Positions 12,507 through 59,354 of a stretch of DNA of 64,000 bases are shown here, piece after piece. Below the pieces are notes generated by a model, which ran no database searches, had not been told where the DNA came from, and saw nothing but the letters and a program-made list of their open reading frames with translations. Every line of letters begins with the position of its first letter. Position 1 is the stretch's first letter. A program made the position numbers and the translations under genes. The stretch is from Clostridia bacterium (GTDB lineage: Bacteria > Bacillota > Clostridia > TANB77 > CAG-508): contig JAGALX010000050.1 in NCBI GenBank assembly GCA_017625035.1, positions 1-64,000 on the forward strand, read 5' to 3'.

Positions 12507-15500
12507 ATGAATTTAGAAAAACTAGACAATATTCCAGACTTTTCAAAAATGCAAAAAGAAATTTTAGAATTCTGGGAAAAGGAAAAAACATTTGAAAAAT
12601 CAGTAAACAAAAATAAAAATCAAGAAGTTGTTTTTTATGACGGACCTCCATTTCCAACAGGAATGCCACATCATGGTACAGTTCTTGTATCTTTTATTAA
12701 AGATATGATTGCAAGATATTGGACAATGAAAGGATATTCTGTTCCAAGAGTATGGGGATGGGATTGTCATGGATTACCTATTGAAACTCAAGCTGAAAAA
12801 ATTTTAGGAATTACAGATAAAAAACAAATTGAATCAGAATTTGGTGTAGATAGGTTTAATGAGGCATGTTATAGTGTTGTTGTAAATAATAATGATGCGT
12901 GGAAAACATATGTAAAAGAAATGTGTAGATGGGTAGATTATGATAATGCTTATAAAACAATGAATGTAGATTTTATGGAAAGCGTATTATGGGCATTTAA
13001 GCAATGTTATAATAAAGGTTTAATTTATCAAGATTACAGAGTAACTCCATATTGTTATAGATGTGAGACTGCACTGTCAATTTCAGATACAAGAGAATCA
13101 GATTCAACAAGGCCAAAACAAGATACTTGGTGTATTGCTAAATTTAAAACAGAAGAAACATTAAACAATAAACCTGTATATCTTTTAGCTTGGACAACAA
13201 CACCATGGACATTATTTTCAAATATGGCATTAGCTGTAAATTCTGAATTCGAATATGCATATGTAGAAGTTGAAAATGAAATTTATGTTGCAGGAAAATC
13301 AATTTTATCAAAATATGCAAAAATCTTTGGAGAAAATCCAAATATCGTAAAATGCTGCAAAGGAAAAGATTTAGAAAATACAGAATATGAACCAGTATGC
13401 GATTATTTTATGGATAAAAAACAAGAAGGAGCATTTAAAGTAATTTTAGCTGATTTTGTTGAATTAGATGAAGGTGTTGGAATTGTTCATATTGCTCCTG
13501 GATTTGGTGAAGATGATTATTGGGCATCTAAAAACAACAATATTCCATTAGTATGTCCTGTTGATGAAAAGGGAAGATACACTGAGGTTATTAAAGCTTT
13601 TGCAGGAAAAAATGTAATGGAAGCTAATATGGATGTTTTAAGATATTTAAAATCACAAAATAAAGTAATTATGGATGGTTCACTTGTTCATAATTACCCA
13701 CATTGTTGGAGATGTAAAACACCACTAATTTATAAGTCAATGGATGCTTGGTATTTTAATGTAGAAAAAGTAAAAGATAAACTTATTAAATATAATGGAA
13801 AAATCAACTGGATTCCAGAAACTGTAAAAGAAGGTAGATTTGGAAATTGGTTAAAAAATGCAAGAGATTGGAATATTTCTAGAAATAGATATTGGAGTAC
13901 ACCAATTCCAATTTGGGAATGTGTTTGTTGCCATGAAAGAAAAGTACTTGGTAGTATTAAAGAAATTGAAGATGTAAGCAATATTAAACTTGATAATTTA
14001 CATAGACAATATATGGATAAAGTAATATTTAATTGTACATGCGGAGGAACTTTTAAAAGAGTACCTGAAGTACTTGATTGTTGGTTTGAATCAGCCTCTG
14101 TTCCTTTTGCTCAAAAACATTATCCATTTGAAAATAAAGAATGGTTCGATAGTCATTTCCCTTGCGATTTTATTGTAGAATATACTGGGCAAATTAGATG
14201 TTGGTTCTACTATTTACATGTTTTAGCAGTTGCTTTATTTGATAAACCAGCATTTAAAAATTGTGTAGTACATGGAACAATTCTTGCCAAAGATGGAAAA
14301 AAATTATCAAAATCTTCAAAAAATTATACAGACCCAATGGATCTTATGAAACAATATGGAACAGATGCTTTTAGATTGTATTTATTTAGGTCAAATGCAA
14401 TTATTATGAATGATTTGTCTTTTGATGAAAATGGAATTAAAAGCCAAGTACAACAAGTTTTGTTACCACTTTATAACTGTGCAAAATTCTTTAACTCATA
14501 TGCACTTTTAGATAAATTTAATCCAGAAGAAATGAATCTTCCTAAATCTGATAATGAATTAGATAAATGGATTTTGGCTAAATTATATGATACAGAAAAT
14601 AAAATTTCATTAAATATGAAAGATTATCAAATTGATAATTATGTTGAACCAATTATTGAACTAATTGATGGATTTAGCAATTGGTATATTAGACGTTCAA
14701 GAAGAAGATTTTGGAGTTTAGAGCAAACACAAGATAAGAAAAATGCATATGAAACAACATATTATGTATTACTAAATATTTGCAAAATATTAGCACCAAT
14801 TGCTCCTGTAATTTCAGAAAGTTTATATAAACATTTTACCGGAAATGAATCTATTCATTTAAGTAATTGGTCAGAAGTTCCAGAAGAATATAAAAATGAA
14901 GAAATCTTAAAACAAACTGATTTAGTGCAAAGAATTATTACACTTGCAAGATATTTAAGAGAAAAAGAAAATATTAAAAACAGACAACCATTATCAAAAG
15001 TTGAAATTGCATTTACAGATAAAGATTATAGTGAAGTAATTAAAAATTTTAATTCGATTATTTGTGATGAAATTAATGTAAAACAAGTGCAAGTACTACA
15101 AAATATAGAAGAACTTGCAAGTATCGAATATATTCCAAATTTCAAAGCAATTGGTCCTAAATATGGCTCTAAAGTTTCAGAAATTACAAAATTAATTAAA
15201 GCAAATAAAATTCAAAAATGTGATGATGGTTATGTTTTAAATTTAAGTGATGAAACTTTAAAATTAGATATTGAAGATGTAAATATTAGATATTTAGCAA
15301 AAGATGGAAATAAAGTTGAAAATGATAAAGATATTATTGTAAGATTAGATACAGAGCTAACAGAAGAGCTAAAAGATGAAGGTTTAGCCCGTGAAATTGT
15401 AAGAAATATTCAAGATGCAAGAAAACAACTAAATTTAGAAATTGCAGATAGAATTATGCTTGAGTTAGATGGTGAGTTAACTGAAAGTAGTAAAGAATAT

Positions 15501-15605
15501 ATTTGCAATGAAACATTAGCAGATATGACTAGCTTTGAAAATGAAGATTTTAAATGCGAAGTTTTGGCTAATGGAAAAAGGGTTTATGTAAGAATTAAAA
15601 AATAA
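12507..15605 (+). CDS. ileS: Isoleucyl-tRNA synthetase, eukaryote-like (IleRS2) type
   Basis: A 1032-residue class Ia synthetase that charges tRNA-Ile. The HIGH region reads MPHHGT (residues 53-58), so the last His of HIGH is Thr. The KMSKS loop is KKLSKS (near 598-603). The editing domain carries LLAWTTTPWTLFSNMALAVN (near residue 230). The length, PRVWGWDCHGLPIE and the long C-terminal domain (residues 700-1032) are those of the eukaryote-like IleRS2 branch, which is often less sensitive to mupirocin than IleRS1. AAAGGATG precedes the ATG. A bidirectional terminator follows at 15731-15762. It appears monocistronic. Confidence 0.93.
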   Translation: MNLEKLDNIPDFSKMQKEILEFWEKEKTFEKSVNKNKNQEVVFYDGPPFPTGMPHHGTVLVSFIKDMIARYWTMKGYSVPRVWGWDCHGLPIETQAEKILGITDKKQIESEFGVDRFNEACYSVVVNNNDAWKTYVKEMCRWVDYDNAYKTMNVDFMESVLWAFKQCYNKGLIYQDYRVTPYCYRCETALSISDTRESDSTRPKQDTWCIAKFKTEETLNNKPVYLLAWTTTPWTLFSNMALAVNSEFEYAYVEVENEIYVAGKSILSKYAKIFGENPNIVKCCKGKDLENTEYEPVCDYFMDKKQEGAFKVILADFVELDEGVGIVHIAPGFGEDDYWASKNNNIPLVCPVDEKGRYTEVIKAFAGKNVMEANMDVLRYLKSQNKVIMDGSLVHNYPHCWRCKTPLIYKSMDAWYFNVEKVKDKLIKYNGKINWIPETVKEGRFGNWLKNARDWNISRNRYWSTPIPIWECVCCHERKVLGSIKEIEDVSNIKLDNLHRQYMDKVIFNCTCGGTFKRVPEVLDCWFESASVPFAQKHYPFENKEWFDSHFPCDFIVEYTGQIRCWFYYLHVLAVALFDKPAFKNCVVHGTILAKDGKKLSKSSKNYTDPMDLMKQYGTDAFRLYLFRSNAIIMNDLSFDENGIKSQVQQVLLPLYNCAKFFNSYALLDKFNPEEMNLPKSDNELDKWILAKLYDTENKISLNMKDYQIDNYVEPIIELIDGFSNWYIRRSRRRFWSLEQTQDKKNAYETTYYVLLNICKILAPIAPVISESLYKHFTGNESIHLSNWSEVPEEYKNEEILKQTDLVQRIITLARYLREKENIKNRQPLSKVEIAFTDKDYSEVIKNFNSIICDEINVKQVQVLQNIEELASIEYIPNFKAIGPKYGSKVSEITKLIKANKIQKCDDGYVLNLSDETLKLDIEDVNIRYLAKDGNKVENDKDIIVRLDTELTEELKDEGLAREIVRNIQDARKQLNLEIADRIMLELDGELTESSKEYICNETLADMTSFENEDFKCEVLANGKRVYVRIKK

Positions 15606-15730
15606 TTTATACAAGTAGTTAAAAATTTGTAGGGATAGTTAACAATTTGTTTGTATAAATATTGAAATTTATTTTAGATTAGTAAATAAAAAATATAAGA
15701 TGTGAAAATTTTAAAAAATCAAATTGATGC

Positions 15731-15762
15731 AAAAGGAGATATAAATTAATATATCTCCTTTT
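15731..15762. terminator. Bidirectional terminator (ileS and minus-strand sRNA)
   Basis: AAAAGGAGATATA (15731-15743) pairs perfectly with TATATCTCCTTTT (15750-15762). T-runs flank both sides, so it can end ileS on the plus strand and the predicted small RNA 2 on the minus strand. Confidence 0.75.
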
Positions 15763-15814
15763 TGAAAGCGTTTATAAACGAATTAACCACATTTAAATGT
15801 GCAACATTAAATGT
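15731..15814 (-). ncRNA. Predicted small RNA 2 of a tandem pair
   Basis: Read on the minus strand. A -10 element TATACT (plus coordinates 15821-15826) has a weak -35. The predicted start near 15814 gives ACATTTAATGTTGCAC, a first hairpin (self-complementary CACATTTAAATGTG, 15788-15801), a linker and the terminator hairpin 15731-15762, about 84 nt. The promoter-proximal 23 bases (TATAATTACATTTAA to TGTTGCAC) match those of small RNA 1 at 15851-15932, so the two appear to be tandem duplicates with diverged hairpins. No frame of useful length is inside. Confidence 0.5.
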
Positions 15815-15850
15815 AATTATAGTATATGCAAATAAATAAATATTATAACC

Positions 15851-15932
15851 AAAAAAGCGAAGACTAGATTAAGTCTAGTCTTCGAAAAAGAACTTCCACT
15901 CCATTTCATTATGGAGTGCAACAGTTAAATGT
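15851..15932 (-). ncRNA. Predicted small RNA 1 of a tandem pair
   Basis: Read on the minus strand. The promoter is TTGACT (plus 15962-15967), a 17-bp spacer and TACAAT (15939-15944). The transcript would start near 15932 with ACATTTAACTGTTGCAC and form hairpin 1 (CACTCCAT 15897-15904 with ATGGAGTG 15911-15918), a linker GAAGTTCTTTTTC and an 11-bp perfect terminator stem (15858-15868 with 15874-15884) followed by U6 (15851-15856), about 82 nt. This is the layout of a small trans-acting RNA. The exposed UUGCACUCC is partly complementary to Shine-Dalgarno sequences, which hints at mRNA binding but proves nothing. Confidence 0.6.
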
Positions 15933-15938
15933 AATTAT

Positions 15939-15967
15939 ATTGTAAAATATTTTCATTAAATAGTCAA
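15939..15967 (-). promoter_or_regulatory. SigA-type promoter of small RNA 1
   Basis: On the minus strand TTGACT (15967-15962), exactly 17 bp, then TACAAT (15944-15939). It is divergent from the promoter at 16011-16039. Confidence 0.6.
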
Positions 15968-16039: not shown

Positions 16040-16070
16040 AAACACAAAAAAAGGAGTAGTGAAAAAAATT

Positions 16071-16622
16071 ATGGAAAATTATTTTATAATACATGGCTCA
16101 TTTAGCAGCCCATATTCAAATTGGTTTAATTGGTTACAAGACTTTATAACATCTGATGGAAAACAAGTATATGTACCAGATTTTCCTATAGGAGTAGGAT
16201 ACCAAAATTATGAAAATTGGAGTAAATTATTAAAATATTATTTAGATTTAGGATTAATAAATGAAAACACAACAATAATAGGACACAGTATAGCACCAAT
16301 ATTTATATCAAAATTTTTAACAGAAAATAATGTTAAAGTTAAAAAACTAATATTTGTATGTGGATTTAATAACTATTTAGGCATTAATGATGAATATGAT
16401 GCTGTTAATAAATCTATGTATTTTGATAATTTACAAGATGTAAAACAATGTGCTAAAGATATAATTTGTTTTTATACAAACAATGATCCGTATGTAAAAT
16501 ATGAAGTAGAAAAAGATTTTGCAGATAAGATAGCAACAGAGCAAATTTGTATTAATGAAGCAGGTCACATCAACAGCGAAAGTGGATATGATACTTTTGA
16601 AGAAATAGTAAGTTATTTATAA
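16071..16622 (+). CDS. RBBP9/YdeN-family alpha/beta hydrolase
   Basis: A 183-residue serine hydrolase. The N-terminal FIIHGSFSSP is the oxyanion strand-loop; GHSIAP (near residue 70) carries the nucleophilic Ser; NNDPYV (near 140) and EAGHINSESG (near 163) supply Asp and His. The compact size fits the RBBP9/YdeN group of small hydrolases, whose substrates are mostly unknown. The start is ambiguous: a GTG at 16059 lies 2 bp after AAGGAG and would add MKKI, while ATG 16071 begins right before the first strand, so I prefer 16071. The next gene starts 8 bp downstream. Confidence 0.75.
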   Translation: MENYFIIHGSFSSPYSNWFNWLQDFITSDGKQVYVPDFPIGVGYQNYENWSKLLKYYLDLGLINENTTIIGHSIAPIFISKFLTENNVKVKKLIFVCGFNNYLGINDEYDAVNKSMYFDNLQDVKQCAKDIICFYTNNDPYVKYEVEKDFADKIATEQICINEAGHINSESGYDTFEEIVSYL

Positions 16623-38005: not shown

Positions 38006-38100
38006 ATGTTATCAAGAGTGGACGAGAGAATCGGCTCAATGACTCCACAGCAACCTGTTAAAAAATAAGGTGCTAATACCGACAAAGCAAAGTGGCTTTG
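38006..38100 (+). promoter_or_regulatory. SAM-I (S-box) riboswitch aptamer
   Basis: The S-box core is recognisable: TTATCAAGAGTGGACGAG (38009-38026), ATCGGCTCAATGACTCC, GCAACCTG, AAGGTGCTAATACCGACA. P1 closes with the AAAGCA/GGCTTTGG region, and a terminator follows at 38131. It senses S-adenosylmethionine and should turn off metK when SAM is plentiful. Confidence 0.9.
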
Positions 38101-38130
38101 GTTGATGATTTTTGTATAATCGAAATTATT

Positions 38131-59117: not shown

Positions 59118-59121
59118 GATA

Positions 59122-59159
59122 AAAAGATATGACCAAATTAAACTTGCTCATATCTTTTT
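59122..59159 (+). terminator. Terminator after the DUF4190-like gene
   Basis: AAAAGATATGA (59122-59132) pairs with TCATATCTTTT (59149-59159), followed by T-run. A REP-like type 1 unit begins 2 bp later. Confidence 0.7.
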
Positions 59160-59160
59160 T

Positions 59161-59190
59161 TGCACATTGGGGACGTAAAAAAAGTGCACA
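59161..59190. repeat. REP-like type 1 unit, left part
   Basis: TGCACATTGGGGACGTAAAA and AAGTGCAC; a distant AAATGTGCA (59253-59261) may be the original right arm displaced by about 60 bp of other sequence. The rest of the 59190-59354 stretch shows nothing else I can support. Confidence 0.5.
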
Positions 59191-59354
59191 ATTAAGTTAA
59201 CCTACCAATTGTAGAGTTGATTTTTTAAAAATTGTATACACTTTTCATATTCTCAAATGTGCATTTTATAAACTTTAAGAATATCATAATTCATATATCA
59301 AATCAATACAAAAATAAAAAATGTATAATTTTTACAAAATGAAGGAAGATATAC

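Follow-up and report, generated by a model that had tools for sequence, protein, structure and literature searches.

Tandem small RNAs U1 and U2 of a Clostridia genome as candidate orphan RNA antitoxins of a PemK-linked module

The RNA pair and its surroundings

A 64,000-nucleotide stretch of a Clostridia bacterium genome (hereafter the window) carries two small RNAs, U1 and U2, in a row on the minus strand. An initial annotation had described such a tandem pair with a common start, hairpins and terminators, and both units are indeed present, with folds well below those of shuffled sequences (z = −5.8 for U1 and −4.4 for U2). U1 (15851..15932, minus strand, ~82 nt), delimited by its folds, by covariance model R1 and by covariation, consists from 5′ to 3′ of ACAUUUAACUGUUGCAC, a first hairpin (CACTCCA..TGGAGTG), the linker GGAAGTTCTTTTTC, and an 11-bp terminator followed by U6. 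Its promoter (15939..15967, minus strand) was read from the sequence as a −35 element TTGACT, a 17-nt spacer and a −10 element TACAAT; this promoter and the 11-bp stem with its T6 run had also been named in the annotation, and both were found. U2 (15730..15814, minus strand, ~85 nt), delimited by its fold and covariance model R2, consists of ACAUUUAAUGUUGCAC, a first hairpin (CACAU-UUAA-AUGUG), the palindrome CGTTTATAAACG, and a 13-bp terminator hairpin (AAAAGGAGATATA..TATATCTCCTTTT). This palindrome is the third small palindrome of U2, is nearly invariant in relatives, and is absent from U1. For the −10 element of U2, the sequence and its alignment with relatives point to TATACT (15821..15826, minus strand) and not to TATAAT. 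Inspection of the sequence gave no good −35 for U2 in the window, and upstream of its −10 most tandem relatives conserve ATTTGCATA.

Of the shared start, ATTACATTTAA-(C)-TGTTGCAC, the window has two exact copies, the same two as in the whole genome, against 0 expected from shuffled sequences. In both units the predicted +1 is an A, 7 nt after the −10 (at 15932 and 15814), so that much of the shared start is the −10/+1 region, and the predicted 5′ ends of U1 and U2 are ACAUUUAA.UGUUGCAC. Using models whose training sets include the window copies, R1 matched U1 at 15852-15934 (87.7 bits, E 9.1e-18) and R2 matched U2 at 15767-15816 (81.7 bits, E 1.1e-16). The window copies have drifted in hairpin 1 of U1 and in the terminator of U2. 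A third R1 match in the window (59121-59200, E 0.09) is weak and was rejected after inspection.

The pair had been called non-coding and had not been matched to a named family, which agrees with our searches of Rfam: at the gathering threshold the window gave a SAM riboswitch and nothing for U1 or U2, and E-value scans of U1/U2, solo U2 copies, and the toxin-linked loci described below gave nothing credible. The SAM riboswitch (38006-38111, plus strand, 80.9 bits) is an ordinary one. Divergent from U1 is a serine hydrolase gene (PF06821, Pfam E 2.5e-17; 16059..16622, plus strand), and related genes lie near these RNAs in 8 of 36 loci, as recurrent neighbors rather than fixed partners. Convergent with U2 is ileS (12507..15605, plus strand), an incidental neighbor: a conserved link to ileS, suggested as a check in the initial annotation, was rejected, as the neighbors of U1/U2 differ among the sampled relatives and are ileS in none of them.

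Conservation and structure of the RNA family

Relatives of U2 were found both inside and outside the window's genome. By blastn, 50–65 nt of U2 are 87–92% identical to sequences on another contig of the same genome (G000:C37) and in genomes G011 and G031, and a 50-nt U2 core is 92% identical to G000:C37:3296-3345. Of 390 genomes of the family, 18, spread over 11 genera, matched an exact pattern of this core, and a scan of 84,980 species gave 34 stretches, all titled as uncultured Clostridia or Eubacteriales MAGs. Most loci with the pattern have U1 ~110 nt upstream of U2, and the tandem is conserved in approximately 25 gut Clostridia genomes; such locus counts, here and below, come from related sequences and are not independent events. 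The promoter of U1 is found at the same position in relatives, as TTGACT or TTGACC, a 17-nt spacer, and TATAAT. A lack of conservation of promoter and start, which had been named as evidence against the pair, was not what we saw, and both are conserved across many genera. The U2 covariance model also found more orphan copies and a third subtype, U3 (TTACATTAATTGTTGCACACTT..AAGTGTGGAGTTTGTTTCATCTTTTATAAAGATGCT), in which another palindrome takes the place of the second hairpin.

Covariation in the stems, proposed earlier as a check, was found as paired changes that 0 of 500 shuffles equaled. In U1, nine pairs have changed on both sides, 99% of cells are paired, and the pair count was reached by 0 of 500 shuffles. 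Hairpin 1, taken over U1, U2 and U3 together, is 97.5% paired, and its covariation score was likewise equaled in 0 of 500. Because compensatory pair changes and high pairing exceed those of shuffled alignments, U1 and U2 are RNAs whose structure is under selection. Within U2, the terminator varies most.

We searched for these RNAs on mobile DNA as well. The exact pattern had no match in IMG/VR, and blastn against phages and plasmids gave no credible match for the RNAs; on these results, a phage or plasmid origin of the RNAs themselves was rejected. Some observations on the surroundings of the copies are recorded here for their own sake. In three loci (L076, L093, L101), a solo U2 stands under a U1 promoter, an arrangement that resembles a deletion by recombination between the shared starts. 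In many genomes (L065, L067, L198, L203, and others), a long inverted repeat (TGTCGGAAACTYTCGTAAAT..ATTTACGARAGTTTCCGACA), possibly a mobile or REP-like element, lies just 3′ of U2 or of the RNA E described below; it is absent from the window.

PemK-like toxins and the RNAs downstream of them

In relatives, the tandem RNAs belong to a module read from one strand in the order c1, c0, U1, U2, with each RNA having its own promoter and terminator. The gene c0, upstream of U1-U2 on the same strand, encodes a PemK/MazF-like protein (PF02452 PemK_toxin, E 9.7e-11), and c1, of ~73 aa, precedes it in all 20 loci collected. U1-U2 come after c1-c0 in each of these 20, directly in 19 and past a 1.4-kb insertion in one. 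A c0 profile searched against 380 genomes of the family gave 12 strong matches (E < 1e-100), all of them followed by U1-U2, including three in which U2 is too changed for the exact pattern. Only once was c0 seen without the RNAs, in G341, where four stops make it a pseudogene. The reverse is more common: the tandem occurs without an intact c0 in the window, in L089, in L060 (a deletion fusion of c1 and c0), and in L180 (c0 reduced to aa 1-53), and approximately 15 loci hold a solo U2 without a toxin. The c0 profile found no c0 in the window's genome, whose assembly is 95% complete, such that a c0 is possible in the unsequenced part. As a control, 17 further PemK-like loci from this family of genomes gave no significant match to U1, U2 or E. 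Since c0 copies are 76–86% identical and several host genomes are close relatives, the association between U1-U2 and c0 could reflect one recently spread island.

The relation between c1 and c0 has its own peculiarities. Their overlap is a constant 49 nt in 20 loci (for example, L065:8962-9697) with c0 in the +1 frame of c1, c0 has no conserved canonical start codon, and in five loci a stop lies upstream of the shared region. Because of the constant overlap, the +1 frame, and the missing conserved start, the sequences suggest programmed +1 frameshifting or an unusual coupled start for c0. Family scans gave c1 no resemblance to MazE or other antitoxins, and its AlphaFold model (mean pLDDT 72) had a best Foldseek match at E 0.4, which is uninformative; the c0 model (pLDDT 49) was too poor for use. 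At or before the −35 of toxin promoters, a LexA-like box (GAACAAATGTGTTG) is seen upstream of c1 (L065, at ~8800) and of some copies of a second toxin gene, c0b (L194, L201), and similar boxes (CGAACATTTGTATTG) precede genes divergent from solo U2 or U3 copies. These promoters are possibly under SOS control, judging from the boxes.

This second PemK-like toxin, c0b (PF02452, E 2.5e-11), is 32% identical to c0 over 107 aa, and two U3 loci lie 3′ of it. A search of the 380 genomes found c0b in 23 of them, 24 copies in all, including one in the window's genome (G000:C39), and an order-level search placed c0b proper in the same family only. A stand-alone RNA, E, follows c0b in 24 of 24 copies, a count that includes one E cut by a contig end (L214) and one c0b pseudogene that has kept its E (L212). 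E carries its own promoter (TTGATT-17-TATCAT) and terminator. No protein neighbor is conserved across the 24 loci, the next commonest family being present in 6. In several loci an E-like element also forms the 5′ leader of c1-c0, there without a U-run. U1/U2 and E are unrelated in sequence, so the argument that they have the same role rests on position. E lacks the (U)ACAU motif of U1/U2. In four further loci (L173, L175, L189, L190), E-U3 pairs lie beside, and divergent from, genes that, judged by eye from their translations, are AbiEi/AbiEii-like, and these loci have no PemK gene.

Homologues of these toxins also occur on plasmids beyond Clostridia. One, on a Heyndrickxia oleronia plasmid, is a c0b homologue (45% identity) with no antitoxin gene adjoining it; after it come a promoter, an E-like RNA (R3 E 0.0044 over 16 kb) and a second unit resembling the first. 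The Bacillus subtilis plasmid pSX01705-2 carries a more distant homologue; TTGACT-17-TATAGT lies 2 nt beyond it, and the structured sequence that comes next closes with a terminator. Five more plasmid homologues (Sutcliffiella, Rummeliibacillus, B. weihaiensis, Natranaerobius, and Acinetobacter) have hairpin-bearing non-coding DNA 3′ of the toxin, and the motif TGCCCTT..TGCGGTC is common to four of the Bacilli plasmid homologues. Plasmid PemK genes of this kind are annotated as “type II” without a visible antitoxin gene. A strict promoter-plus-terminator rule was passed by 2 of 7 plasmid toxins vs. 0 of 213 random segments, and with 2 of 7 passing, the extension of the toxin-then-RNA layout to plasmids is suggestive. 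After the PemK genes of B. weihaiensis and Natranaerobius (L231, L232), we noted two hairpin repeats in tandem that end in GGTCC or AGTCC (for example, CTTGACCCTTTTAGGGTCC / CTTGACTTAACTATAAAGTTAGGTCC), which recall type III repeats. Among viral contigs, searches gave no relatives of c0, and one c0b-like fragment only.

Candidate RNA antitoxins and competing explanations

We propose that U1 and U2 are RNA antitoxin copies of a type III-like module that persist in the window without their toxin, a reading that we hold to be probable, with considerable room for doubt. Its two parts differ in strength. That U1/U2 derive from the c0-linked module is very likely, and that they neutralize a PemK toxin as RNA is favored somewhat over the contrary, on the pattern of genes and RNAs. 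The antitoxin role fits because the toxin always comes with an RNA while the RNA often comes without the toxin, because c0b has no protein partner, and because the RNAs have their own promoters, that of U1 being strong. In such a mechanism, U1/U2 would be transcribed in excess and would bind the toxin through their shared 5′ part, ACAUUUAA.UGUUGCAC plus hairpin 1, and the bound toxin would stay inactive until transcription stops. U^ACAU is the cut site of several Gram-positive MazFs (PMC10893535), and the same letters, as (U)ACAU, stand invariant at the 5′ end predicted for U1, U2 and U3. It may be speculated that the RNA is held by the toxin as a decoy or product mimic, and we regard the identity of the two motifs as at most a suggestive coincidence. 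Orphan copies like the window's might guard the cell against a toxin that comes in on mobile DNA, or might be decaying relics.

One alternative is that U1/U2 act as antisense-type regulators with the logic of type I systems, pairing with the c1-c0 mRNA or other mRNAs and blocking translation. They are small and end in terminators, some of their unpaired segments are conserved (GGAAGUUGUUUUUC in U1 and UUAGUUCGUUUAUAAACGC in U2), and pairing in trans is compatible with a position beside the toxin on the same strand. However, a duplex search against the c1-c0 leader and coding region in 13 loci gave z-scores from −2.1 to +1.1 with the best site unconserved, and a search of E against c0b, over its first 200 nt in 10 loci, again gave no conserved site. 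Antisense pairing of U1/U2 with c1-c0 mRNA or of E with c0b was set aside on these searches, and in the 13 c0 and 10 c0b loci neither U1/U2 nor E showed, as a conserved or significant duplex, the extended complementarity to toxin mRNA that characterizes type I systems. Antisense regulation, of the toxin mRNA or of others, seems unlikely to us. The initial annotation had leaned in this direction, taking the pair for trans-acting regulators: its conserved start and variable body are borne out, and the duplex search found no conserved pairing site in the toxin mRNA. Since the constant partner is a toxin gene and a site in its mRNA was not found, an RNA antitoxin is a better reading than a seed-pairing regulator, and the lack of a conserved antisense site argues for RNA–protein inhibition, as in type III, over type I pairing. 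With inhibition of that kind, the shared 5′ part of U1, U2 and U3 would be the natural toxin-binding region.

It could also be that c1 is a protein antitoxin, c1-c0 an ordinary type II system, and U1/U2 small RNAs or regulators unconnected with it that travel on the same mobile island. The placement of c1 before c0 in every locus with a constant overlap is a type II-like layout, and U2 stands alone in many places, which would suit RNAs with a life of their own. Against this, c1 has neither antitoxin resemblance nor a confident fold match, intact c0 was never seen without U1-U2, and c0b has neither c1 nor a conserved protein partner, yet always has an RNA; we consider such an arrangement rather improbable. 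Finally, U1/U2 might be mainly features of the DNA or of transcription, namely bidirectional terminators between convergent genes, or recombination or att sites at cassette edges. Most U2 copies do sit where a convergent gene ends, they often have an inverted repeat (TGTCGGAAACT..AGTTTCCGACA) behind them, and the solo copies that join a U1 promoter to a U2 body look as if recombined. But such a role would need no conserved −10, fixed +1, conserved 50-nt body, or constant placement after PemK, and a terminator function sits poorly with a terminator that varies more than the rest of U2, making this the least plausible explanation and a very improbable one.

The proposed modules resemble type III systems (ToxIN, CptIN, TenpIN) in having a small non-coding RNA partner and Rho-independent terminators, and in having no protein antitoxin, which is clear for c0b. 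The toxins are alike in fold family too, as type III toxins share the MazF/Kid-like fold (PMC5086642). However, in type III systems a single promoter serves the toxin and an RNA encoded upstream of it (PMC5086642), whereas U1-U2 and E come after the toxin and have promoters of their own. Type III repeats are tight and are cut by the toxin into pseudoknotted monomers; U1/U2, which were modeled by nested folding, stand in tandem and have their start and hairpin 1 in common, yet each is transcribed as a predicted unit of its own and their 3′ halves differ. The toxins differ as well, being ToxN, CptN, or TenpN in type III and PF02452 PemK for c0 and c0b, and Pfam and NCBIfam scans, in libraries that may not hold all three families, reported no type III toxin family. 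The PF02452 domain is shared with the type II systems MazEF and PemIK (Kis-Kid). Unlike those, the modules have no MazE/PemI-like gene and a conserved RNA gene in its place. At c0b no protein gene beside the toxin is conserved; at c0 the adjacent c1 matches no antitoxin family, though it may still be the antitoxin of c0. Both c0 and c0b also have an N-terminal extension of ~60–85 aa. AvcID offers a precedent, as it is called type III though its toxin is not ToxN-like, and its RNA antitoxin binds the toxin, inhibits it, and disappears once transcription stops (PMC10511110). It differs in its toxin, a deoxycytidylate deaminase rather than a PemK, in its RNA, a single AvcI of ~300 nt with a functional minimum of ~171 compared with 82–85 nt for U1/U2, and in that no terminator is predicted between avcI and avcD (PMC10511110).

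A broader proposal is more tentative. The usual assumption for PemK/MazF toxins is a protein antitoxin. It is possible, though we would not put it as the likelier case, that there is an undescribed, widespread toxin–antitoxin class in which a solitary PemK/MazF RNase is held by downstream stand-alone RNAs with their own promoters, with orphan RNAs serving as immunity against addiction or mobile elements. That class would span unrelated RNA families: U1/U2/U3, E, and the plasmid family in Bacilli. Our literature search, in open-access PMC full text, turned up no PemK toxin whose antitoxin is an RNA encoded downstream. If the RNA just downstream is truly the partner, many “type II” annotations of PemK genes would be incomplete, and the border between type II and type III would be an evolutionary continuum, given a fold already common to both. 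The candidate on the Bacillus subtilis plasmid makes the idea testable in a laboratory species, and orphan RNAs like U1/U2 would become a testable case of RNA immunity to incoming toxin modules.
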